From Rufibacter immobilis (GTDB lineage Bacteria > Bacteroidota > Bacteroidia > Cytophagales > Hymenobacteraceae), in NCBI RefSeq assembly GCF_003721565.1, contig NZ_RJJE01000009.1, forward strand, positions 186,001 to 250,000: a DNA stretch of 64,000 nucleotides. The letters run 5' to 3'. Each line of letters starts with the position of its first letter. The stretch's first letter is position 1. The notes below the pieces were generated by a model. The model did not search any database. It saw only the letters and a list, made by a program, of their open reading frames with translations, and had not been told where the DNA came from. This document shows, in pieces, positions 16,409 through 63,200 of this stretch. The position numbers and the translations under genes were made by a program.

Positions 16409-17143
16409 ATGAGCACCATCATAAAAACCGAGAATATCTCCAGGGTCTACCAGATGGGTACCGAAACCATCCACGCCCTGCGGTCCATTTCCATTGAGAT
16501 AAAGAAAGGCGAATATGTGGCGTTCATGGGTCCGTCTGGGTCCGGAAAATCCACGCTCATGAACATTGTGGGCTGTCTGGATACTCCCACCTCAGGCACC
16601 TACATCCTGAACGGGAATGACGTGAGCAACATGGCCGACAATGAACTGGCTACGGTGCGTAACAAGGAGATTGGCTTCGTGTTCCAGACCTTTAACCTCT
16701 TGCCCCGCTCCTCTTCCTTAGAGAACGTGGCCCTGCCGCTCGTGTATGCCGGGTATGGCAAAGCCGAACGGGAAGAACGCGCCATGGAAGCCCTTAACAG
16801 CGTAGGCCTGGGCACCCGCGCCCAGCACAAACCTAATGAGCTGTCTGGCGGGCAGCGCCAACGGGTAGCCATTGCCCGGGCCCTGGTGAATGACCCCAGC
16901 ATTATCTTAGCCGATGAGCCTACCGGAAACCTGGACACCAAGACCTCCTATGAGATCATGGGCCTGTTTGAGAACCTGCACGCCAAAGGCAACACCATCA
17001 TTATGGTAACCCACGAAGACGACATCGCCCATTACGCGCACCGCATTGTACGCCTGCGCGATGGCCTCATTGAGTCTGACATTATGAATGATAACATTAC
17101 GGTGCCCGCCCTACAGGCCGCCGCTTTGAATTCCTCTGAATGA
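16409..17143 (+). CDS. ABC transporter ATP-binding protein (LolD/MacB type)
   Basis: A 244-residue ATPase with Walker [11 protein letters not shown]-loop [10 protein letters not shown], signature LSGGQRQR, Walker [13 protein letters not shown] and switch His in MVTHEDD. The pattern NLLP...ADEPTGNLD is typical of the LolD/MacB/FtsE branch that drives mechanotransmission or lipoprotein-release pumps rather than substrate import. No permease of the MacB/LolC family adjoins it, so the partner is either elsewhere or the upstream membrane-TPR protein. The stop codon overlaps the next start (ATGA at 17140-17143), implying coupled translation with the adenosyltransferase gene. Confidence 0.92.
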
Positions 17144-27694: not shown

Positions 27695-30190
27695 TTATGC
27701 TTCTGCCTTGGGCTGAGCCTCCTCGCGCACCCGCAGGTCCAAGGGCTTGGCTACTTTCTCAGGCAGCAGCGCAATCTCCAGCACTTCGTCCACGCGGTCT
27801 ACGTAATGGATGTTGAGGCCTTCAATATAGTGCGCCGAGATCTCCTCTACGTCCTTACGGTTTTTGTAGCACAGAATCACGTCTTTGATACCCGCCCGCT
27901 TGGCCGCCAGTATTTTCTCTTTGATGCCACCCACCGGCAGCACCTTGCCGCGCAGGGTAATCTCACCGGTCATGGCCAGATGCGACCGCACCTTACGCTG
28001 CGTAAACACAGAGGCGATGGACGTGAAGATAGCGATACCGGCACTTGGACCGTCTTTGGGCACCGCCCCTTCGGGGAAGTGAATGTGCAGGTCGTACTGG
28101 TCAAAGAGGCGGTAATCAATGTCCATTTCGTCGGCACGGGCACGCAGGTAAGAAACCGCCGTGATGGCAGATTCTTTCATCACATCGCCTAACTGACCGG
28201 ATAAGGTCAGTTTGCCCTTGCCGCGGCTCAACAGAGATTCAATGAACAGGATGTCGCCGCCCACGGAGGTCCAGGCAAGCCCGGTTACCACGCCAGCGGT
28301 TTCATTGTCCTGGTACAGTTCTTTGTCAAAGATCTCCGGTCCCAGAATGCGCACCACGTCCTTCGGCTCCAGTTTGGCCGGAAACTCCTCTTCCATGGCC
28401 TTGGACTTAGCAATGTTCCGGATCACGGCACCCAGCTTACGTTCCAGGTTTCGGACCCCAGACTCACGGGTATAGTCTTCAATCACTTTCTGCACCGCCG
28501 CCGTTGACAGCGTCACGTCTTTGGGTTGCAGGCCATGGTCTTCCTTCAGTTTGGAAATGAGGTGGCGCTTCGCGATTTCAGTTTTCTCTTCAATGGTGTA
28601 GCCCGTCACTTCAATGATCTCCATACGGTCGCGCAGGGCCGGATGAATGGTATCCAAAGAGTTGGCCGTGGCAATGAACAGCACCTTAGAGAGGTCATAT
28701 TCCACCTCCAGGTAATTATCCTGGAAAGTATGGTTCTGCTCAGGGTCCAGCACCTCCAGCAAGGCGCTGGAAGGATCTCCGCGGAAATCTGAGTTCAGCT
28801 TGTCTACCTCGTCCAGAATCATGACCGGGTTGGAAGAACCCACTTTCTTAATCTGGCTGATGATACGGCCCGGCATAGCGCCCACGTAAGTTTTGCGGTG
28901 CCCTCTGATCTCAGCCTCATCGCGCACACCGCCCAGGGCAATACGCACGTATTTACGCCCCAATGCTTTGGCCACGGAACGACCCAGTGAGGTTTTCCCC
29001 ACGCCCGGAGGCCCGTAGAGGCAAAGAATGGGCGCCTTCATGTCATTTTTCAGCTTGAGCACCGCCAGGTACTCTAAGATACGCTCCTTCACCTTCTCCA
29101 ACCCGTAATGGTCAGTGTCCAGGATTTTCTTGGTGCGCTTCAGGTTGAAGTTGTCTTTGGTGAAATCGCTCCAGGGTAGATCCAGCAGGAATTCGCAGTA
29201 ATTGAGGGAGATAGGATATTCGGCGGCCTGCGGGTTCAGGCGGCTGAGTTTATCCAGTTCCTTGTTGAAATGTTTGGCAACCGCCTCTGGCCATTTTTTC
29301 TTGGCCGCGGCCGCGCGCATTTTCTCTACTTCCTGCTCAGGGCCATCCATGCCCAGTTCGTCCTGCAACACTTTAATTTGCTGGCGCAGGAAATAATCGC
29401 GCTGCTGCTCGTCAATGTCGGTGTGTACTTTGCTATGGATTTCCTGCTTGATTTCCAGCATCTGGATTTCACGCATCATCAATTGCAGCAGCGTAGTGCC
29501 GCGCTCCACGCCATCATTGATCTCCAGCAGTTTCTGCTTCTGGCCTACCTCCGCGTTGATGTTAGACGACAGGAAATGCATTAAGAAGCTGGGGCTGTCA
29601 ATGTTATCCAGGGCCACCTGGGCCTCCTGCGGAATCTCAGGATTCAATTTCAGGATTTTAGCCGCCGCATCCTGCAAAGACTCTACCAGCGCCTTTACCT
29701 CCTTGCTGTTCTTTTTAGGGAACGTCTCTGGGCAGTAAGACACTTTGGCCACCATAAATGGCTCCTCTTGCGTAATCTCCTCAATTTTGAAACGGCTCTG
29801 GCCCTGAATGATGATGGTGGTATTGCCGTCTGGCAGCACCAGCATTTTCAGGATTTTGGCCATGGTTCCCACCTCAAACAGATCATCTGGGGTAGGTTCT
29901 TCGGCACTCATGTTTTTCTGGGCCACTACGCCCACCGTTTTGTCGCCGCGGTAGGCTTTACGCACCAACCGCACCGATTTTTTACGGCTTACCGTAATAG
30001 GGATTACCACGCCCGGAAACAGCACCGTGTTTCTAATGGGCAATAGCGGCAAAGAGCCCGGGTTATTTTTTTCAGCGCCCTCTGAGTCATCCAATTCTGA
30101 GGTAATAATGGAGATCAATTCCCCGTTACCGTCGTCAGACAGATCGGACAACATGAGTTGCTGGAGTAGGTTCTCTTGGGTATAATTCAT
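27695..30190 (-). CDS. lon: ATP-dependent endopeptidase Lon
   Basis: An 831-residue Lon protease. The N-terminal substrate-binding domain ([19 protein letters not shown]) is followed by a coiled coil, the AAA+ module (Walker [12 protein letters not shown], Walker [12 protein letters not shown]) and the Ser/Lys peptidase domain with [11 protein letters not shown] (catalytic Ser) and [14 protein letters not shown] (catalytic Lys). Lon degrades misfolded and regulatory proteins in the cytoplasm. The start at 30190 ([12 protein letters not shown]) is chosen; the longer frame to 30256 runs into the divergent promoter region. The gene is divergent from the PorE-like gene. Confidence 0.96.
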
Positions 30191-30336
30191 ACGAAATGTA
30201 GCAGAGGGTGCCAAATTGGCAGCAATCCTCCCGTAGGTTCGGTTGTTTGTCTTCAAGATATATACTTGTCAAGAGCTGTGCCAATATATAAGCGCAAATC
30301 TGCGGGACCGGGAGTAATTTTCCCCTCAGAAAAAGC

Positions 30337-37634: not shown

Positions 37635-38139
37635 GTAATCTTCTTGAAGCCGTTTAGAGGCCGTTTTTGCGAAATTAAGGGAAAACTGTGGGTTTGCCTA
37701 CTATGCCCCAATCCCTTCTGCCATGGCAAACTTCTAACCCTCTAAACTCTTGCCTTGCTTTTACAAGACGGCCGGAAAATCAAATGCCTCAGAAAGCTGC
37801 TTTTTACTATGCATCACCATATGCTATTAGATACTCCTTGCCAAGTTAAAGTAACTCTATCGCATGATCCTACACGCATGTGTTACAGTTGAAAACATTC
37901 TTCTCCTCTAAATAAGATAAAACGTTTTAGATTTTGCTTCTATCAGAAATTACCTTATTTTAGACAGGCGTCTATCCCTATACAAATTTACATGTAGGAA
38001 TAGAAAAATATATCTATAATCATACAAACTATTCTCTTCTCATCTTTCCTATTTAAACTAGAAGCAAAGGCAGCATATATACTTTGAAATTATTTATAAA
38101 AAATCATTAATATCTCAAAAAAAATAAACGCGCTTCAAC
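37635..38139. other. 505-bp AT-rich intergenic region
   Basis: It holds R1 copy 20 at its left end, then strongly AT-rich DNA leading to the GLPGLI gene. A near-consensus -7 box (TATACTTTG) lies about 60 bp before ATG 38140. Nothing else was recognised. Confidence 0.6.
37650..37687. repeat. R1 palindromic element, copy 20 (asymmetric)
   Basis: CCGTTTAGAGGCCGTTTTTG with loose arm AAGGGAAAACT. It marks the edge between GC-rich and AT-rich DNA. Confidence 0.82.
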
Positions 38140-38934
38140 ATGCATAAAAGACATATATTATTACTTATAAAAACACTTCTTTTACTAGTCCACTCCTATA
38201 CATTTGCACAGCAAGCCACCGGAGTTGTTTACTATGAAGACATTGAAAGCCTGGGTGCTCCAGGCGCCAATTTGAAGCCTTTTAACGCGGCATTATATTT
38301 CTCTCCAGAAGTAGCTCTTTATGTAACAAGAATAGATTCCCTGGAAAACGGCAAGAAAAACATTTCTAAAACGTATACAGATGCGAACGGGGCTGTAAAA
38401 GGCATAAAATCCAGCAGTACAGATAAAGGCCTATTTAATATAACATATCGTAAAGAGAGCAAGCTGATTAGCAATGCACGCTTTAAAAGTAATTTCACTT
38501 ATCAAGAAGCCCTGCCAGAAATTAGTTGGAAAATATCAAACCAATCAAAAGAAATAGGAGGCATAAAAGCCATCAAAGCCACTACTAAATTTAGAGGAAG
38601 AAACTACACAGCATGGTTTTCTCCAGAAATTGCGGTTCCCTTAGGCCCCTGGAAACTACAAGGGCTTCCTGGTTTGATTCTTGAGGCACACGATGACCAT
38701 AAAGAGATTCACTTCATTTTCAAAAAGATAGTTTACCCCTATAAAGGGAAAATACTTTTCCCCGAGGTAAAGGGCAATCTCCCTGATTTGACTGCATTAA
38801 AAAGAGAACAAGATCTTAACTACGAAAATAATCTGAAGTACCAAAGAGCCATTGCTGAGCAATATGCCGGTTCTATAAGCACGGAAGGGAAAACAACTGA
38901 ATATAGAAAGCGCTATTTCGAAATCTTTGAATAA
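38140..38934 (+). CDS. GLPGLI family protein
   Basis: A 264-residue exported protein with signal peptide LLLIKTLLLLVHSYTFAQ. The family motif PWKLQGLPGLILEAHD contains the name-giving GLPGLI at about residue 180, preceded by TAWFSPEIAVPLGP. GLPGLI proteins are restricted to Bacteroidota. They are often encoded next to a TonB-dependent receptor-like protein, as here (the 38938 gene begins 3 bp after this stop). Their function is not established; a periplasmic partner of the receptor is a reasonable inference. Codon use is AT-rich compared with genes on either side, suggesting acquisition as a pair. Confidence 0.9.
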   Translation: MHKRHILLLIKTLLLLVHSYTFAQQATGVVYYEDIESLGAPGANLKPFNAALYFSPEVALYVTRIDSLENGKKNISKTYTDANGAVKGIKSSSTDKGLFNITYRKESKLISNARFKSNFTYQEALPEISWKISNQSKEIGGIKAIKATTKFRGRNYTAWFSPEIAVPLGPWKLQGLPGLILEAHDDHKEIHFIFKKIVYPYKGKILFPEVKGNLPDLTALKREQDLNYENNLKYQRAIAEQYAGSISTEGKTTEYRKRYFEIFE

Positions 38935-38937
38935 CTG

Positions 38938-41559
38938 ATGCGCCACATTTTCCTTCTTATCTTCTTCATCAACGCATTTGCCCTTCATGCTCAGGATTAC
39001 CAAATAACTGGCTTCATCAAAGACAAAGAAGGAAAGCCTATTGAATTTGCCAACGTACTTCTTCTCTCTAACAAAGAAGAGGTGATTACCTATGCTATAT
39101 CAAAGCAAGGCGGGGAGTACTCTTTGAAATTTAGCGCAACAGCAGGCGACAGCTTATGGCTCTCCGTTCGTTATTTGGGGTATAACGAGTTCAGAAAAGA
39201 AATTTCTATCAATTCCACTCCTACTGTTCTCTCCATAGATGGTATTCTTACCCAAAAGAATGAGAACCTGGATGAAGTGGTTGTTATTGAATCTTCCAGA
39301 CCAATTACGGTTACGCAAGATACCATCACCTATAATCTAGACTTCCATACAGATAAGAATGAACAAACTGTTGAAGATGTTTTAAAGAAACTGCCGGGCG
39401 TTTCTGTGGCAGATGACGGCACCATTAGATATGGGAATAAGGAGATAAGCAGAATTCTGATAGACGGGGACAATTTAGTGGATGACCAGTACACCCTATT
39501 AAGTAAGAACCTGGACAGTGACCTGCTCAAAAACGTGCAGGTGCTCCGCAACTATGACGAGAATCCATTGCGCAAGAAGTTTGGGGAGGGAGATGAAGTG
39601 GCCATAAACCTATCCATAAAGGAAGACAAGAAGAACATCCTGTTTGGTAAACTAAGTGCAGGATCAGGGACGAACCAACGTTACAACACAAAATCCAATC
39701 TAGGCCTCTTAAAAGAGCAGTTCAAAGTTTTAAATATTAATGACGCCAATAACAATGGCTTCCAAACTAGCCCTAAGAACACTTATAAGAATCTAGCTTT
39801 ACAAGATTTATGGGAATACAACTCAAAAAAAGAGGCATTCGCTACACCCGTAGTTCAAAATGAAGTAAACCAACCTGGATTTCTAAAAGCAGAAGAAGCG
39901 TTACCCAACAAATCAGAGCTAGGTTCTATTACTACTTCCTACAAGTGGAACAATAACCTGAGCATTAGGTCTCTTACCTATTTCTCTAAAGACAAACTGT
40001 TCTTTGATAACAATACCTATACACGGTTTCTTACAGAAGAGCAGCCACTCACTTATACAGAACAAATTCATGCAAGGCCCGTCAACAGAAACCTTTACCT
40101 CAATACGGAATTAAAATACTACAACCAGAAAAACTGGTATACTACCTTTGAAGCCGAATATAGACGAGAGTCACCCCTATGGAATCAGGGGCTACTGCTA
40201 AATGACAAGGCTATAAAAAGCGCGTCTGAGGCTTTACAACACTATTTCAACAATCATCTATATGTCACGTACCAAGCCTCAGAGTCTTTTCTATTAGAAA
40301 ATTACGCCTATTTCTCCTATTCCAGAACAACCCAAGACTTTTTTGGACAGGGCATCAACTTTAGACAAAGATTAGAAGAGGCAGATCTACAACAATTCTC
40401 GAAAGAACGAAAAACATATGCAGGCCTGAATAGCAGACTAAAATTTTCTAATGCCAGGAGACGCATTCATTTAGCCGTAGGCATAGAGAAAGAAAATGAC
40501 CACCTACAAGCGAATATTTTCTCCTCAGAGAGCAAAATAGAGGATAGTTTACAGAGTAGCCGGAAGTTGAACTTCACCAACTTTCATGAACAAGCCAGCT
40601 ACACCTTTTACTTGCAGCAAAATAAGAGCATAGAGGTAGAGGCTGGGTTTACCCATAAGGTAACAGGCAAAGCTCTTGCAGAAGATTTTCACTTAGTGAG
40701 GAGCGGAATCACCTATCTTTTCTCAGTGCCAAAGGCAGGCAAATTCGCGCTAAATTATACCTACCGGCAACAATTGAGCGACTATAGTAGGTTTTACAAT
40801 GGGTATGCCCTCAAAGACTATAGAACCTTGGTGGGGGGAGCAACCCACTTACTTAGGGTAAACAGTAATGCACTGGGCTTCACCCATAATTACCAAGATT
40901 TGGCCAATGGCTTTTTGCTCTTCAACATTGTCTCTTACACCAGCTATGATAAAGGGTATATCACACAAAATTTTATCAACGAAGATTTTACCGTAATTGA
41001 GACAGAGGAGGGAAAAGGAGGAAGGCTCCTTTTAGCGCAAAATCAAATCACTACTTACGTGGCCCCACTCTATACAAGCTTTAAATTGGAAAGCACCTTC
41101 AGCCATACCCTTAATTATCTGTCAATTAACTTAGGACCTTTCCAAAAGGCAAAGAACTATAACGTGTCCTCCAGGTTTTCAGGAACCACCTATTTCAATT
41201 TTCCTGCTAATCTTAGATTTTCTGCTGAGTACCAGAAGAACCGTAGCACTTTCAACGAGGCTAGTTCACAGGTTAACAACTATATACTTAGCAACGAGAT
41301 TATCTTTAAGCCTAATGAGAAGCTAGTATTCACCACAAACCACAATTTCTATCACCTGTCTGGCAACAAGCATTCCTTCCTAGCGGTAACGGTAGACTAT
41401 AAACCAGAAAGGAGCAAGTGGGCTTTTCAACTTTCTGGCCAGAACCTGTTGGGTGTCCAGAACTTCCGCACCATCCAGACAAGCGATTTCAGGTATTTTG
41501 AGCAGAAAACCTTGATTAATAAACGCTACATTATGCTAATGGCACATTTACGCCTATAG
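38938..41559 (+). CDS. TonB-dependent receptor-like outer membrane protein
   Basis: An 873-residue outer-membrane protein. The signal peptide (MRHIFLLIFFINAFALHAQ) is followed by a carboxypeptidase-regulatory-like domain (ITGFIKDKEGKPIEFANVLL, about residues 22-105). A plug-like domain comes next (NLDEVVVIESSRPITV, VEDVLKKLPGVSVADDGTI, EISRILIDGD). The rest is a long beta barrel rich in aromatic strands, ending KRYIMLMAHLRL. It is translated 3 bp after the GLPGLI gene. The ligand is unknown; no sulfatase, glycosidase, SusD or metal-uptake gene is nearby. The gene shares the AT-rich composition of its partner. Confidence 0.85.
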   Translation: MRHIFLLIFFINAFALHAQDYQITGFIKDKEGKPIEFANVLLLSNKEEVITYAISKQGGEYSLKFSATAGDSLWLSVRYLGYNEFRKEISINSTPTVLSIDGILTQKNENLDEVVVIESSRPITVTQDTITYNLDFHTDKNEQTVEDVLKKLPGVSVADDGTIRYGNKEISRILIDGDNLVDDQYTLLSKNLDSDLLKNVQVLRNYDENPLRKKFGEGDEVAINLSIKEDKKNILFGKLSAGSGTNQRYNTKSNLGLLKEQFKVLNINDANNNGFQTSPKNTYKNLALQDLWEYNSKKEAFATPVVQNEVNQPGFLKAEEALPNKSELGSITTSYKWNNNLSIRSLTYFSKDKLFFDNNTYTRFLTEEQPLTYTEQIHARPVNRNLYLNTELKYYNQKNWYTTFEAEYRRESPLWNQGLLLNDKAIKSASEALQHYFNNHLYVTYQASESFLLENYAYFSYSRTTQDFFGQGINFRQRLEEADLQQFSKERKTYAGLNSRLKFSNARRRIHLAVGIEKENDHLQANIFSSESKIEDSLQSSRKLNFTNFHEQASYTFYLQQNKSIEVEAGFTHKVTGKALAEDFHLVRSGITYLFSVPKAGKFALNYTYRQQLSDYSRFYNGYALKDYRTLVGGATHLLRVNSNALGFTHNYQDLANGFLLFNIVSYTSYDKGYITQNFINEDFTVIETEEGKGGRLLLAQNQITTYVAPLYTSFKLESTFSHTLNYLSINLGPFQKAKNYNVSSRFSGTTYFNFPANLRFSAEYQKNRSTFNEASSQVNNYILSNEIIFKPNEKLVFTTNHNFYHLSGNKHSFLAVTVDYKPERSKWAFQLSGQNLLGVQNFRTIQTSDFRYFEQKTLINKRYIMLMAHLRL

Positions 41560-47313: not shown

Positions 47314-48744
47314 TTAAACCGCCTTCACCTTGAACTTCTTCTGCAGCTCCTGGATAGAAGCCTTGAATTTTTTGTCGGTGTCAATCAGGTCAGACACCGT
47401 CTGTACTGAGTGGATTACCGTGGAATGGTCGCGGCCGCCAAAATGGTACCCAATGGACTTAAGCGAATGGCTGGTGTATTCCTTCGCGAAATACATGGCC
47501 ACCTGGCGCGCCGTCACAATCTCTTTCTTGCGGGTTTTGGCTTTGAGCGAATCCAAACTCACCTGAAAATACTCGGCCACAGTTTTCTGGATGAAATCCA
47601 GGTTTACCTCGGTCTCCACATCTTCAATAATGTGCTTGAGCGCGGCTTTAGCTAGTTCCAGGTCAATCTCTTTGCGGTTCAAGGAGGACTGCGCTATCAA
47701 CGAAATCAAGACCCCTTCCAGTTCCCGCACGTTGGTGTCTACGCTGTAGGCCAGGTATTCAATCACGTTGTCTGGGATGTGGATGCCGTCACTCTGCATC
47801 TTTTTCTGGATGATGGCCATACGGGTTTCAAAGTCGGGGCTCTGCAAATCGGCGGTGAGACCCCACTTGAAGCGCGATAACAGACGCTCTTCCAAACCTT
47901 TGAGGTCACGTGGCGGACAGTCTGAGGTCATCACAATCTGCTTGCCGCTCTGGTGCAGGTGGTTAAAGATGTGGAAGAACATCTCCTGGGTTTTCTCCTT
48001 CCCGCTCAGGAACTGCACGTCGTCAATGATGAGGATATCTACCAGCAGGTAGAAATTGGCGAAATCCTGTACGTTATTGGTTTTCAGGGACTCAATGAAC
48101 TGGTTCACGAATTTCTCTGAAGACACGTACAGCACAAACTTGTCTGGGTTGTTGCCTTTGATGTGGTTGCCAATGGCCTGCACCAGGTGGGTCTTGCCCA
48201 AACCTACGCCGCCATACACCATTAAGGGATTAAAGGAAGTGGTACCGGGCTTGTTGGCCACGGCATACCCCGCTGAACGCGCCAGACGGTTGCAGTCTCC
48301 TTCAATATAATTCTCAAAGGTGTAGCTCTGGTTTAGCTGGGAGTTGAAAAAGTGCCGGTCAATGGCTTTGGACTCAAACGGGTTCTTCAGGAAGCTCCGC
48401 TCCGGGCTGTATGAATTGACAACCGCACTGGGCACTTTTTTAGTGGGGATATTTACCGTCTGGGGCTTGCTGTGGTCGTTGCCTTGGTCTACAATAATAG
48501 AGTATTCCAAACGGCCCTCAGAGCCCAGTTCCTGGAACACCACTTTCTTCAGGAGGCTTACATAATGCTCTTCCAGCCACTCATAGAAGAATTGGCTGGG
48601 CACCTGTATGGTGAGCACATTATTAGCCAAAGACAACGGCACGATGGGCTCGAACCACGTCTTGTAGCTCTGCTCGCCAATGTTGTCTTTGATAACTTGT
48701 AAACAGTTATGCCAGACGGTTGTACAGTCTTTTACCATTAACAT
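47314..48744 (-). CDS. dnaA: chromosomal replication initiator protein DnaA
   Basis: A 476-residue replication initiator. Domain I: VWHNCLQVIKDNIGEQSYKT. Domain III AAA+: Walker A GGVGLGKTHLVQAI, Walker B ILIIDDVQFL, box VII region LLSRFKWGL. Domain IV DNA binding: ARQVAMYFAKEYTSHSLKSI then FGGRDHSTVIHSV, the DnaA signature. ATG codons at 48744 and 48738 are both possible starts; the open frame to 48756 begins with TTG. No clear TTATCCACA-type DnaA boxes were seen beside the gene, so the origin is probably not immediately adjacent. It is followed by an Rrf2 regulator. Confidence 0.96.
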   Translation of the reverse strand: MLMVKDCTTVWHNCLQVIKDNIGEQSYKTWFEPIVPLSLANNVLTIQVPSQFFYEWLEEHYVSLLKKVVFQELGSEGRLEYSIIVDQGNDHSKPQTVNIPTKKVPSAVVNSYSPERSFLKNPFESKAIDRHFFNSQLNQSYTFENYIEGDCNRLARSAGYAVANKPGTTSFNPLMVYGGVGLGKTHLVQAIGNHIKGNNPDKFVLYVSSEKFVNQFIESLKTNNVQDFANFYLLVDILIIDDVQFLSGKEKTQEMFFHIFNHLHQSGKQIVMTSDCPPRDLKGLEERLLSRFKWGLTADLQSPDFETRMAIIQKKMQSDGIHIPDNVIEYLAYSVDTNVRELEGVLISLIAQSSLNRKEIDLELAKAALKHIIEDVETEVNLDFIQKTVAEYFQVSLDSLKAKTRKKEIVTARQVAMYFAKEYTSHSLKSIGYHFGGRDHSTVIHSVQTVSDLIDTDKKFKASIQELQKKFKVKAV

Positions 48745-48834
48745 CGCTTCTTCCAATCCCGCGTTTATTTGAGTGTAGAATTTTTCAGGGGGTTACAAAA
48801 ATGGAAAAAAACTCCTGAGAAAAAAACTTGAAGA

Positions 48835-56451: not shown

Positions 56452-58584
<2,133 letters not shown>

Positions 58585-58613
58585 ATTTTATCTTCTTTTT
58601 ACGATGGTTTATA

Positions 58614-58621
58614 TACTTTTG
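58614..58621 (+). promoter_or_regulatory. -7 box TACTTTTG of the ATPase/TOPRIM operon
   Basis: An exact TAnnTTTG match 19 bp before ATG 58641. No clear -33 element. It suggests the operon has its own promoter and a short leader. Confidence 0.55.
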
Positions 58622-58640
58622 TATCATCAATTTAAGCACA

Positions 58641-59849
58641 ATGACAAAAACTATTAAAAAGATAGATCGGTTATTCTTAAAAAATGCAAAAATCGAGGAT
58701 TTTCGCACAATAAGAAATATTGATGTATATTTTGGGCCTGGATTAAATATTATAATAGGAAAGAATGGGTCTGGGAAAACTAATTTCTTACATTCTCTGA
58801 GCAGAGCTTTAGAATTAAGCGACAAATATTCACCCTATTCTGCACATCTCATTTTAGAAGGAGATGCAACATTTGAAATTATTTATAAGGGTTTAAAAAA
58901 AGATATTAATTTTATCAAACAAACAAAATTAAACCATAAATTAAGTGACAAATTAAACGAAGTTGAGCTTAGACTAAACAATAAAAAGATAAAAATAGAA
59001 GAAAGCATATTTACAACATTAGACAAGAAAAATATTTCATATAGCAGTATATTTATACAACACGGAACTCCAAAAAATGACCAGCCACTGATTACCTCTC
59101 CACTTTCATTTAGCATTGCAGAGGATGGGTTATCGAATGAAATATTTCACTTCTTATATGAAGGCAAAGTAAACCATTTCTTAAAAACAATATTAACTCG
59201 TTTATTTATAGAGACTAACTTAACTGATATTGAAAACCGTTCTGAAAGCAATCTAAATTCTATAATAGGATCTTTTAATAAACATTTTATAAATTTATCT
59301 GATATACTAAATCGTTTCTCTCCTATTCAAGAGATCAGATTTAACAACAACTATAATGTATTTAAGAAAGGAGAACAAGAAGAACTTATTGTTGACAATC
59401 TTTTCATTGAATTTAAAATAAACAATACTTGGCTTCCATTTTCTCAACTATCAGATGGAACTAAAAGAATTTTCTATATTATTAGTGAAATTCATTCAAT
59501 AGGATCATTTTATTATTCGAGAGGAAGAACATACTCAAGTTTGTCTCAGCCATCAATTATCTTGTTGGAAGAGCCAGAATTAGGAGTGCATCCCCATCAA
59601 CTTCATAAGTTGATGTTATTTATCAGAGAACAGGCTGAAAGCAAACAAATAATTTTAACTACACATGCACCCCAAATTTTAGACTTCATAGAAGAAGGCG
59701 AACTTGATAAAATAATTATTTCACGATACAATATTGAGACAGGTTCACAATTCTTACATTTAACTGATAGAGAAAAGGAAAAAGCAGCTCTATATATGGA
59801 AGATGAGCACTTAAGCGATTATTGGAAACATTCTACATTAGAGGAATAA
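58641..59849 (+). CDS. ABC-type AAA family ATPase (AAA_21/RloA/AbiLi-like), putative defence protein
   Basis: A 402-residue SMC/RecF-like ATPase. The N-terminal FLKNAKIEDFRTIRNIDVYF leads to Walker A GKNGSGKT (residues 40-47). The ABC signature reads LSDGTKR (270-276), Walker B is IILLEEPELGVHP (306-318), and the switch His is in LTTHAPQILDFI. Between them lies an insert of about 200 residues without recognised motifs. This form is typical of ATPases paired with TOPRIM nucleases in anti-phage systems such as AbiL, PARIS and OLD-type systems. A DUF4276-like TOPRIM gene follows 7 bp downstream. The DNA is much more AT-rich than both neighbours, consistent with transfer. A defence role is inferred. 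Confidence 0.85.
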   Translation: MTKTIKKIDRLFLKNAKIEDFRTIRNIDVYFGPGLNIIIGKNGSGKTNFLHSLSRALELSDKYSPYSAHLILEGDATFEIIYKGLKKDINFIKQTKLNHKLSDKLNEVELRLNNKKIKIEESIFTTLDKKNISYSSIFIQHGTPKNDQPLITSPLSFSIAEDGLSNEIFHFLYEGKVNHFLKTILTRLFIETNLTDIENRSESNLNSIIGSFNKHFINLSDILNRFSPIQEIRFNNNYNVFKKGEQEELIVDNLFIEFKINNTWLPFSQLSDGTKRIFYIISEIHSIGSFYYSRGRTYSSLSQPSIILLEEPELGVHPHQLHKLMLFIREQAESKQIILTTHAPQILDFIEEGELDKIIISRYNIETGSQFLHLTDREKEKAALYMEDEHLSDYWKHSTLEE

Positions 59850-59856
59850 AGGATAT

Positions 59857-60429
59857 ATGATAACAATTGGTCTTATTGGGGAAGATCCGAACGATACTCA
59901 GTCTATCACTAATTTATTATCACCTGAGTTTCATAAAGAAATAAAATTCATCACCTTATTAAAAAGAATCAATGGAAGCCAACTTGACAATCAGAAAACA
60001 AAACATTTATTAAGAAAGGAAATCGAATTTGAGAAACCTGACTTAGTCATTGCCATAAGAGATTTAGACAGTCATGAGCAGGACAATGATAAGAGAGAAA
60101 AAATAAACGAGTTTTTCATCGCAGTTAATAGGATATCTGATGGCAAATCTATAAAATTATTAAATATCCATGAGATAGAAGCATTAATATTAGCAGACAT
60201 AGAAACATTTAATTCTATATATAAAACTAATATTTCTATTACAACTGCCCCTCAAAGCATAAGTGAACCAAAAGAATTTTTGAAGTCAGCAACCTACAAA
60301 GCCAAAGGAAAGAAGTATAATGAGTCTCATAATCCTGAGATTTTTGCTCATTTAAAAATTGAAATAATAAAATCTAAATGCACCTACTTTAATACATTCA
60401 TAGAAAGATTAAGTAAAGCCTTGATATAG
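59857..60429 (+). CDS. TOPRIM-like DUF4276-related protein, putative nuclease effector
   Basis: A 190-residue protein. Its layout fits a TOPRIM/DUF4276 domain: a first strand ending in an acidic pair (IGLIGEDPNDT, Glu 9), a second acidic site DLD at residues 69-71 within LVIAIRDLDSHE, then IHEIEALILAD (104-114) and SEPKEFLKSATYKAKGKKYN followed by SHNPEIFAHLKIE. In TOPRIM nucleases such Glu and DxD residues bind magnesium. It overlaps no other gene, starts 7 bp after the ATPase gene and shares its AT-rich composition, so the two form one operon. The likely role is the nuclease or effector of the pair. A DUF4276 identity is from pattern recognition only. Confidence 0.72.
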   Translation: MITIGLIGEDPNDTQSITNLLSPEFHKEIKFITLLKRINGSQLDNQKTKHLLRKEIEFEKPDLVIAIRDLDSHEQDNDKREKINEFFIAVNRISDGKSIKLLNIHEIEALILADIETFNSIYKTNISITTAPQSISEPKEFLKSATYKAKGKKYNESHNPEIFAHLKIEIIKSKCTYFNTFIERLSKALI

Positions 60430-60620
60430 TACAGTTAAACCTATTTTGTTTAGAGAATCTAATCTCAGCTGATGTTTCTCCACTCATTTTCAAAATTAGC
60501 TAAAAACTCGCTTCCTAAAATTCTCTAAATTTCTCCGCTCCCTCATTAAACCTTCCCCCTCTGGCTTTGTCTAAAGCGGGTATCAGATACTCCCTTTACA
60601 CACTACCAAGCAAACTTTAA

Positions 60621-63200
60621 ATGAAGAAGTTCTTATTGACGCTGGGTCTGGTGTCCTCCGTGGCCGGAGGAGTAGCCATGGCCCAGGGAAAAACCCAACC
60701 CGCCGACTCCACCAAGCGAGTGGCCGGAGCCTCGGGGCTGGAAGGCGATTCCAAGCAGAAAGGCAAACCCAAGCCGTACAACCAGGTCATCACAGACAAA
60801 GCCGTTTCCAAGTCCGGTTTTTTCAAGACCCACAAAGTAGAAGACAAATACTTCTTTGAGCTGGCAGACTCTGTGCTGGGCCGCGAGATTCTGGTGGTGA
60901 ACCGTATCTCCAAAGCCGGGGCCGAGGTGCGGGCCGCCTCGGGCTACGCCGGTGACCAGATCGGCAGCGCCGTGATCATGTTTGAGAAAGGTCCAGATGA
61001 CCGCATTTTCCTGCGCAAGATCTCCTATGCCACCTACAGCCCAGACAGCACCAAGTCTATGTACCAGGCCGTGCAGCGGTCTAACATCCAAGCCATTGTA
61101 GCTTCCTTCAGCGTGGCGGCCTATGGCTCCAACGGCAAAACCACCGTTATTGACCTTACCGACTACCTCAAAGGCGAGAACGAGATTTTCTCCTTCAGCT
61201 CCGGGGCCGGCAAAACCCGTTTCCGGCTAGGCAACTTCGTGGGCGACCGCAGCTACATCCAGGATGTGCGCAGCTTCCCGCAGAACGTGGAGGTAACCAC
61301 CGTCAAAACCTACGCCCTCACCCCTGCCTCCAGCGGCGAAAGCGGACGCTCTACCCCCAGCAGCGGCGGCAGCGGTTCTTCGTCTTTGAATGGCTCGGCT
61401 ACCATTGAGGTCAATTCCTCTATGGTGGTGCTGCCCAAGAAGCCCATGCAGCCCCGTTACTTTGATCCTCGAGTGGGATATTTCACGGTTGGCTACACAG
61501 ATTTTGACGCCAATCCGCAGGGCGTAAAGGAAATCCAGATGGTGAAACGCTGGAGACTGGAGCCCAAGGAGAAAGACATGGCCAAGTACAAACGCGGCGA
61601 ACTGGTGGAGCCCAAAGAGCCCATCGTGTTCTACATTGACCCGGCTACGCCGAAGAAATGGGTGCCGTACCTGATTGCCGGGGTAAACGACTGGCAGAAA
61701 GCCTTTGAGAAAGCCGGTTTCAAGAACGCCATCATAGGCAAAGAAGCGCCAAGCGCCAAGGAAAACCCCAACTGGAGCTTAGACGATGCCCGCCACAGCG
61801 CCATTGTGTACAAGCCCTCAGAAATCCCCAACGCCAGCGGTCCCAGCATCGCGGATCCGCGCAGCGGCCAGATCATGGAAAGCCATATTAACTGGTACCA
61901 TAACGTGATGAAACTGGTGCGCGACTGGTACTTCATCCAGGCGGCCGCCATTGACCCACGCGCCCGCAAAATGGAATTCTCAGATGAGCTCATGGGCGAC
62001 CTGATCCGTTTCGTGTCTTCGCACGAAGTGGGCCACACCCTGGGGCTGCGCCACAACTACGGTTCCAGCTCAACGGTGCCGGTAGAGAACCTGCGCAACA
62101 AGAAATGGGTGGAAGCCAACGGCCACACCCCGTCTATCATGGACTACGCCCGCTTTAACTACGTGGCCCAGCCTGAGGACAACATCACCTCCAAGGGCAT
62201 TTACCCCAGAATTGGCGACTATGACCTATGGGCCATTGAGTGGGGTTACCGTGTGTTGCCTAACGCCAAGAGCGCCCAGGCCGAAGTAGCCACCCTGAAC
62301 AAGATGACCGTGGAGAAGCTGAAGAACCGCCGCCACTGGTTCGGGACGGAGACCAACCCAGACGACCCGCACTCGCAGAACGAGGACCTCAGCGACAACG
62401 CCATGAAAGCCTCTGAGTACGGCATCAAAAACCTGCAGCGCATTCTGGCCAAACTGCCGGAGTGGACCCGTGAGGAAAACGAGGGTTATGACAATCTAGA
62501 GAACATGTACGGCCAGCTCACCACGCAGTTCAACCGCTACATGGGCCACGTAGCCAAGAACATTGGCGGTATCTATGAGAACCCTAAAACGGTAGAGCAG
62601 GAAGGCCCGGTGTATGAGCGCACGCCGGCGGCTACCCAGAAAGAAGCCATGGCGTTCCTGGACAAGCAATTGTTCACTACCCCTACCTGGATGCTCGCGC
62701 CCGCAGTACTGAACAACATTGGCTCCAACCCCATGATTGTACTCTCCCGCAGCCAGCAAACCGTGCTCAACCGCCTCATCAGCAACAGCACGTTGACCAA
62801 GCTCATCTCCGGCGAAGCCATGGACGGCGCCAAGGCCTACAAAGTGACTGATTTCTTCACAGACCTGAACAACTCCATCTTCAGGGAAGTGAAAAACAAA
62901 CAGGCCATTGACGTGTACCGCCGCAACCTGCAGAAGATTTACGTGGAACAGCTGATTGACCTGGTGAAACCGGCTCCGGCCACCGCGGCCAGCAGCGCCA
63001 CGGCCAGCGCCTCCAGAAGACCTACTGCTCCTACCATGGACATTCAGCAGAGCGATGTGATTTCCGTGGCCAAGGCCGAGTTGCGCAACATCAACAACCT
63101 GATCAAATCGGCGGCCGCGTCGCAGTCAGATTCCCTGAGCAACTACCACTTGCAGGATCTCGCAGACCGCATCAATGAAGCCCTTAACCCCAGAGGTTAA
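60621..63200 (+). CDS. zinc-dependent metalloprotease (DUF5117/DUF5118/DUF4953 type)
   Basis: An 859-residue secreted metallopeptidase. The signal peptide MKKFLLTLGLVSSVAGGVAMAQ is followed by a DUF5118/DUF5117-like N-terminal half (YNQVITDKAVSKSGFFKTHK, FFELADSVLGREILVVNRIS). The catalytic part has SSHEVGHTLGLRHNYGSS, the extended HExxHxxGxxH zinc site of metzincin type, and SIMDYARFNYV with a Met-turn-like Met. The C-terminal third is helical, ending with Ala/Ser/Thr-rich and SVAKAELRNINNLI segments. Large proteins of this type are common in Bacteroidota; the substrates are unknown. A perfect-palindrome terminator follows. Confidence 0.92.
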   Translation: MKKFLLTLGLVSSVAGGVAMAQGKTQPADSTKRVAGASGLEGDSKQKGKPKPYNQVITDKAVSKSGFFKTHKVEDKYFFELADSVLGREILVVNRISKAGAEVRAASGYAGDQIGSAVIMFEKGPDDRIFLRKISYATYSPDSTKSMYQAVQRSNIQAIVASFSVAAYGSNGKTTVIDLTDYLKGENEIFSFSSGAGKTRFRLGNFVGDRSYIQDVRSFPQNVEVTTVKTYALTPASSGESGRSTPSSGGSGSSSLNGSATIEVNSSMVVLPKKPMQPRYFDPRVGYFTVGYTDFDANPQGVKEIQMVKRWRLEPKEKDMAKYKRGELVEPKEPIVFYIDPATPKKWVPYLIAGVNDWQKAFEKAGFKNAIIGKEAPSAKENPNWSLDDARHSAIVYKPSEIPNASGPSIADPRSGQIMESHINWYHNVMKLVRDWYFIQAAAIDPRARKMEFSDELMGDLIRFVSSHEVGHTLGLRHNYGSSSTVPVENLRNKKWVEANGHTPSIMDYARFNYVAQPEDNITSKGIYPRIGDYDLWAIEWGYRVLPNAKSAQAEVATLNKMTVEKLKNRRHWFGTETNPDDPHSQNEDLSDNAMKASEYGIKNLQRILAKLPEWTREENEGYDNLENMYGQLTTQFNRYMGHVAKNIGGIYENPKTVEQEGPVYERTPAATQKEAMAFLDKQLFTTPTWMLAPAVLNNIGSNPMIVLSRSQQTVLNRLISNSTLTKLISGEAMDGAKAYKVTDFFTDLNNSIFREVKNKQAIDVYRRNLQKIYVEQLIDLVKPAPATAASSATASASRRPTAPTMDIQQSDVISVAKAELRNINNLIKSAAASQSDSLSNYHLQDLADRINEALNPRG

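Follow-up and report, generated by a model that had tools for sequence, protein, structure and literature searches.

An AAA_21 ATPase and DUF4276 protein gene pair of Rufibacter immobilis as a candidate anti-phage cassette of the HEC-01 type

PARIS, in which an ABC ATPase is accompanied by a separate Toprim protein, is reported to be an abortive-infection system and is defined by an AAA_15 (at least 32) or AAA_21 (at least 27) ATPase together with a DUF4435 protein (at least 27 bits) (PMC9122126), and a second paper states that its Toprim protein cuts tRNA and that the ATPase PtuA of Septu and retron systems has the HNH nuclease PtuB as partner (PMC12409363). The HEC systems have been described as candidates embedded in Hma, several of which are reported to act against viruses (PMC12988326, PMC12111858). 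No report of HEC-01 itself being tested was found in the literature, preprints not being covered, and the open-licence full-text literature likewise gave no mention of DUF4276 or PF14103.

Here we describe a gene pair of this general build in a 64,000-nt stretch (hereafter the window) of Rufibacter immobilis contig NZ_RJJE01000009.1 (GCF_003721565.1, positions 186,001-250,000, forward strand). The plus-strand interval between the end of mutB (58584) and the start of a metalloprotease-like gene (60621) is occupied by two intact open reading frames (ORFs), separated by 7 bp (59850-59856):

58641..59849, plus strand: ORF of an ABC (SMC/PtuA/AAA_21-type) ATPase, 402 aa
59857..60429, plus strand: ORF of a DUF4276 protein, predicted Toprim nuclease, 190 aa

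We think it likely, though by no means certain, that these two genes were gained by horizontal transfer and make up an anti-phage cassette of the HEC-01 type (AAA_21 ATPase plus DUF4276), in which an ATPase controls a Toprim nuclease. An anti-phage role is suggested because both proteins match anti-phage models, the operon is kept, the site is variable and houses an Mrr endonuclease in 4 of 12 intervals, and the composition is foreign, the G+C content of the pair being 0.290 against 0.531 in the remaining window. What is observed beneath this reading is the kinship of both proteins, the conserved operon, the ABC motifs, an OLD-like fold prediction, a conserved and full set of candidate active-site residues and the presence in one genome of the genus at a variable site. 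An initial annotation of this DNA had given the positions, the sizes (402 and 190 residues), the 7-bp gap and the motif coordinates correctly, and its remark that the composition differs from that of the flanks is borne out by the values above.

Protein families and the candidate active site

The ATPase matches AAA_21 (3.7e-23, 83.5 bits, cut-off 27) and AAA_15 (7.8e-19, 69 bits) in Pfam, and its PADLOC matches are headed by AriA (3.6e-24), HEC-01A (PDLC04175, 1.2e-21) and mad3 (6.2e-21). A total of 1144 proteins match it at E<=1e-5, and no natural fusion of ATPase and nuclease occurs among the 120 of these that were listed. In an alignment of the window ATPase with 42 of 47 reference proteins (43 in total), every sequence matches the HEC-01A model at E<=0.001, the H-loop histidine H342 is kept throughout, and the remaining elements are conserved as follows:

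58758..58781, plus strand: Walker A, GKNGSGKT, residues 40-47; G40, N42, G45 and K46 in 43/43
59448..59468, plus strand: ABC signature, LSDGTKR, residues 270-276; S271, G273 and R276 in 43/43
59568..59585, plus strand: Walker B and catalytic Glu, EEPELG, residues 310-315; E310 and E311 in 43/43
59811..59843, plus strand: C-terminal tail, LSDYWKHSTLE, residues 391-401; W395 in 43/43, S398 in 41/43

The last of these is a possible docking element for the nuclease.

The second protein has DUF4276 (PF14103) as its sole Pfam family at E<=1 (6e-13, 49.9 bits, cut-off 30.2), and its match to the HEC-01B model PDLC04188 (E 2.6e-8, 31.9 bits) covers residues 74-187 only and was judged without PADLOC's own thresholds. 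At E<=1e-3 it is matched by 127 proteins, the window's own included, and since the two proteins together have these 127 and the above 1144 matches and form a conserved operon, the ORF pair is more than a product of chance. The clade alignment comprises 41 of the 120 proteins listed among the 127; the HEC-01B model is matched by 34 of the 41 (E<=0.01), and one relative's DUF4276 protein (L054) has no PADLOC match at 1e-3. A fold search (VIA list) placed C-terminal domains of OLD proteins at ranks 1, 3, 7 and 8, so that an OLD-like Toprim fold is predicted for the protein, and the initial description of the pair as an ABC-type ATPase followed by a TOPRIM/DUF4276-like protein is thus in agreement with families above their cut-offs as well as with the predicted fold. 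AriB of PARIS is not among the 50 rows listed from this search, an absence that excludes nothing.

Four conserved motifs can be set against residues E400/E404, D455/D457, T506/E508 and K562, given for Bp OLD (PMC6755086):

59881..59895, plus strand: EDPND (E9-D13), metal-site Glu and its +4 acid; E9 and D13 in 41/41; proposed counterpart of E400/E404
60061..60069, plus strand: DLD, residues 69-71, Toprim DxD; D69 and D71 in 41/41; proposed counterpart of D455/D457
60172..60180, plus strand: EIE, residues 106-108, second metal-site residues; E106 in 40/41, E108 in 41/41; proposed counterpart of T506/E508
60271..60273, plus strand: K139, possible catalytic lysine; K in 40/41; putative counterpart of K562

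The matching relies on order and within-motif spacing, not on superposed coordinates, and on this basis we propose that the protein carries a full candidate OLD-type two-metal site consisting of the Glu, the +4 acid, the DxD, the helix residues (those at the first helix of the helical part) and the Lys.

Comparison with named systems

Judged by sequence, the nearest named two-gene system is HEC-01, and the pair is best placed within the DUF4276/HEC-01 type, as a divergent subgroup. The model sizes are similar, the HEC-01A and HEC-01B models are both matched (E 1.2e-21 and 2.6e-8), and the window clade aligns with class-sampled DUF4276 proteins at an hhalign probability of 95.9% (E 6e-9). On the other hand the HEC-01B scores of the window pair are low, and the clade keeps the DxD whereas 8 of the 10 class-sampled proteins have D-x-Y/F, although the intact motif is not unique to the clade, since two distant HEC-01B-type relatives from the host family (L058, L059) keep HDLD and an SPKE motif. 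The pair furthermore lies outside Hma, no Hma match being present among 43 window proteins or 87 neighbours of relatives at E<=1e-15. HEC-01 was left unconsidered in the initial annotation, while its outline of an ABC ATPase with a Toprim-type protein and a likely defence role stands, and its suggestion of a distinct subtype seems fair.

The likeness to PARIS is considerable, since an ABC ATPase is again paired with a separate Toprim protein, the best PADLOC model of the window ATPase is AriA, its Pfam scores lie above both ATPase thresholds of the PARIS rule (83.5 bits for AAA_21, 69 for AAA_15), and an invariant Glu and DxD are found in both. AriB is however a DUF4435 protein, a family to which the second protein of the window shows no match at E<=1, and hhalign gives a probability of 0.5% against the DUF4435/AriB-type alignment. 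In spite of the AriA match PARIS membership was accordingly rejected for want of the DUF4435 partner, the ground on which the initial annotation had rightly set it aside. RloAB was rejected as well, there being no RloB (PF13707) match at E<=1 and an hhalign value of 0.08%. The comparison alignments are small (10 of 26 fetched loci for DUF4276, 6 of 11 for DUF4435, from which a 528-aa ORF, L116, was left out, and 15 of 20 for RloB), so the low values mean that the profiles do not reach each other and no more; all three alignments have a Toprim-like Glu, Asp, Glu series in common, each of these residues being invariant. Membership in AbiL is not supported, the AbiLi model ranking 16th among the ATPase models (E 3.8e-16) and AbiLii being absent among the 12 PADLOC matches of the second protein, where the presence of an AbiLii model in the library was not checked. 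The earlier view that AbiL-like or RloAB-like systems fit more closely than PARIS is hence not supported.

The remaining candidates are more distant. OLD proteins (class 2 Burkholderia OLD, Gabija GajA) differ in that the window has two separate proteins, with 9% identity, in their motif distances, and in two of the seven residues, which are replaced (E404 by D13, T506 by E106); Septu and retron PtuA differ through the HNH partner, which is not a Toprim protein (PMC12409363). MADS is like the pair in the mad3 match of the ATPase, but the window pair stands alone: the only mad3 match among the 43 other window proteins (E 3.2e-32) is probably an ABC-transporter-type ATPase at 16409-17140.

Relatives and genomic placement

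A genome scan with the single sequence found no relatives, and 47 loci were found when named genomes were scanned with an alignment profile. In 46 of these an ATPase match immediately precedes the gene in the same orientation, as a partial ORF in three (L069 and L090, cut by the contig end, and L104, a 98-aa in-frame piece), and the one locus without it (L105) is at a contig edge. By title 45 of the 47 carry Bacteroidota or Bacteroidetes names, the others being an Ignavibacteria and a Rhodothermia bin. Seven of 150 genomes of the host family have some match, namely the own genome, clade members in G065, G099 and G071, the distant HEC-01B type in G087 and G019, and a false match in G082, rejected as a retron NDT protein; locus L060, whose protein is a retron NDT, was excluded from clade counts, and L058 and L059 were excluded as distant from the G+C, Mantel and ATPase sets. 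G071 holds the pair twice, in separate places (L056, L057). Across the class, PF14103 matches 23 of 198 genomes (15 over the cut-off), DUF4435 matches 10 and RloB 23, and the clade is present in at least six genomes, own included, a count based on tblastn restricted to the PF14103 loci. The distance matrices of ATPase and DUF4276 protein agree (Mantel r 0.73, 46 pairs, none of 2000 permutations as high), which would also be expected from linked inheritance alone. No plasmid relatives were found at E<=1e-5, and a search for phage and viral carriage of the pair gave no match.

The surroundings of the pair in the window are as follows:

58585..60475, no strand: AT-rich insert of about 1.89 kb in the mutB-metalloprotease interval, right edge approximate
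58614..58621, plus strand: TACTTTTG, possible Bacteroidetes -7 box of the pair, read from the sequence
56452..58584, plus strand: flanking core gene mutB, presumably a methylmalonyl-CoA mutase subunit, 710 aa; 95.8-97.5% identical in the 11 other interval-bearing genomes
60621..63200, plus strand: flanking core gene, which we take from the initial annotation to be metalloprotease-like, 859 aa; 78-88% identical in 15 same-genus genomes

The name mutB likewise goes back to that annotation. AT-rich sequence starts directly after the mutB stop codon (58582-58584), and similarity to the 11 same-genus intervals returns at about 60475-60480. The candidate promoter element TACTTTTG, 19 bp upstream of the ATPase ATG, fits the Bacteroidetes -7 consensus TAnnTTTG; a clear -33 box was not seen upstream of the pair on reading the sequence. 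The insert has no further ORF resembling a recombinase, a search for long terminal repeats at the pair gave short imperfect repeats only, the window has no tRNA genes, and the only two RNA-element matches in or beside the pair are far under gathering scores.

Among the 16 same-genus genomes the pair is confined to that of the window and the protease gene is found in all, own included; mutB adjoins it in 12 and lies elsewhere in the other four, whose intervals are therefore uninformative. An Mrr endonuclease occurs in four of the 12 intervals (L041, with Mrr_N 2.6e-33 and Mrr_cat 1.9e-35; a near-identical 305-aa ORF in L040, L046 and L047), a PAS protein with a 118-aa ORF in L039 and L040, a 225-aa ORF with no Pfam match in L044, L045 and L047, DUF6843 in L043, and a Y1/RAYT-like transposase in L042, which L039 and L040 match with ORFs of a similar kind, Pfam having been searched with one representative per type; L051 (214 bp) and L053 (260-263 bp) have no ORF of at least 60 aa. 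The interval is thus a minor site of turnover, with two empty versions and six cargo types, the window pair included, and it also takes a restriction-type gene; a single gain of the pair is the simplest history. Palindromic repeats around GAGTCTGGAGACTC are found in L039, L040, L042 and L051, three of which have the RAYT-like Y1 transposase ORFs; together these suggest a REP element system, which may drive turnover of the interval.

When the 411 proteins encoded up to 5 kb away were clustered (short-contig loci offering few), four groups emerged that share at least two neighbour families at like positions (L062/L072/L078, L081/L088, L068/L107, L100/L101), which leaves about 46 different sites for the 51 clade loci. 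Such spread, together with the one genome in 16, is not that of a core gene at a conserved site, which the initial annotation had named as counting against its proposal. The first group consists of three Flavobacterium genomes in which the genes flanking the pair are those of adenylosuccinate lyase and an IMP dehydrogenase-like protein, possibly a shared insertion site or vertical inheritance. The nearest neighbours (87 proteins, 45 loci) belong most often to Pfam families such as adenylosuccinate lyase, PheT, EF-G and RadC; transposases and integrases are absent from the 25 families listed out of 122, and seven PADLOC models are matched at E<=1e-15 by one protein each. A G+C content below that of the flanks is seen for the pair in 48 of 49 loci (difference -0.09 on average), and the difference in the window (-0.24) exceeds any of the 49.

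Elsewhere in the window, the gene at 47317-48756 (minus strand) looks like dnaA, for which we take it from its translation, which would put the pair some 10 kb away from this gene. Another AT-rich stretch (36-41% G+C over 38001-41000) coincides in part with ORFs at 38140-41559 for what are presumably a 264-aa GLPGLI-like and an 873-aa outer-membrane/TonB-like protein. A second defence system in the window was considered and rejected, as only two PADLOC models are matched by one protein each among the 43, probably the ABC-transporter-type ATPase mentioned above and a protein at 27698-30256 that we take from its translation to be Lon.

Mechanism, alternatives and meaning

As an anti-phage cassette of the HEC-01 type, the pair would act by way of an ATPase that dimerises in the fashion of SMC, Rad50 or PtuA and serves as scaffold and sensor, an arrangement expected from the analogy to PARIS. 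It would bind and restrain the DUF4276 protein, perhaps via the conserved C-terminal tail, until a phage-derived signal shifts its state and the DUF4276 protein is released or activated; the latter, as a two-metal OLD-type Toprim nuclease, would then cut nucleic acid and the infected cell would be stopped. Complex, restraint, trigger, substrate and abortive infection are all inferred from analogy, and for the substrate the odds seem about equal between host tRNA, favoured by PARIS, and DNA, favoured by the structural likeness to OLD and Gabija. A more far-reaching proposal, speculative and on the whole doubtful, is that of a lineage centred on the Bacteroidota whose Toprim nucleases are gated by ATPases, travelling between core-gene intervals as a solitary recombinase-free islet and arresting translation by tRNA cleavage, reached apart from PARIS within the DUF4276 branch.

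What weighs against an anti-phage cassette is its placement, since no defence island was found around it, neither among the 87 nearest neighbours of 45 loci nor among the 43 window proteins (PADLOC, E<=1e-15). The pattern is instead that of a lone, transferable cassette, and while this is unlike the defence-island pattern it also speaks against a housekeeping role. A RecF- or Rad50-like pair, in which an ATPase clamp and a Toprim nuclease serve repair and chromosome maintenance, not phage defence, is quite unlikely given the patchy presence in genus and class, and the many sites and foreign composition are likewise unlike housekeeping. The solitary placement would suit a selfish toxin-antitoxin-like pair as well, with the DUF4276 protein as toxic nuclease, the ATPase as antidote and no dedicated phage trigger, and so would the two-gene operon with its adjacent ATPase match in 46 of 47 loci and the Pfam text for AAA_21 ('putative AbiEii toxin, Type IV TA system'). 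Pairs of this type are common on plasmids, however, where no relatives of the present one were found, and in PARIS single-gene deletions were non-toxic and the authors excluded a toxin-antitoxin system (PMC9122126); we therefore regard this explanation as unlikely. That the pair is a decayed or catalytically idle remnant merely resembling such a system is very improbable, for although it occurs in one copy, and within the genus in one genome only, and some relatives (e.g. L104, L107) have broken frames or cut ORFs, neither frame in the window is broken and no catalytic motif is missing.

An anti-phage cassette of the HEC-01 type thus seems the best explanation. DUF4276 is an unnamed domain, and the complete candidate OLD-type two-metal site makes its activity directly testable by a few point mutants. 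The solitary placement furthermore means that searches relying on defence-island neighbourhoods could miss the clade.
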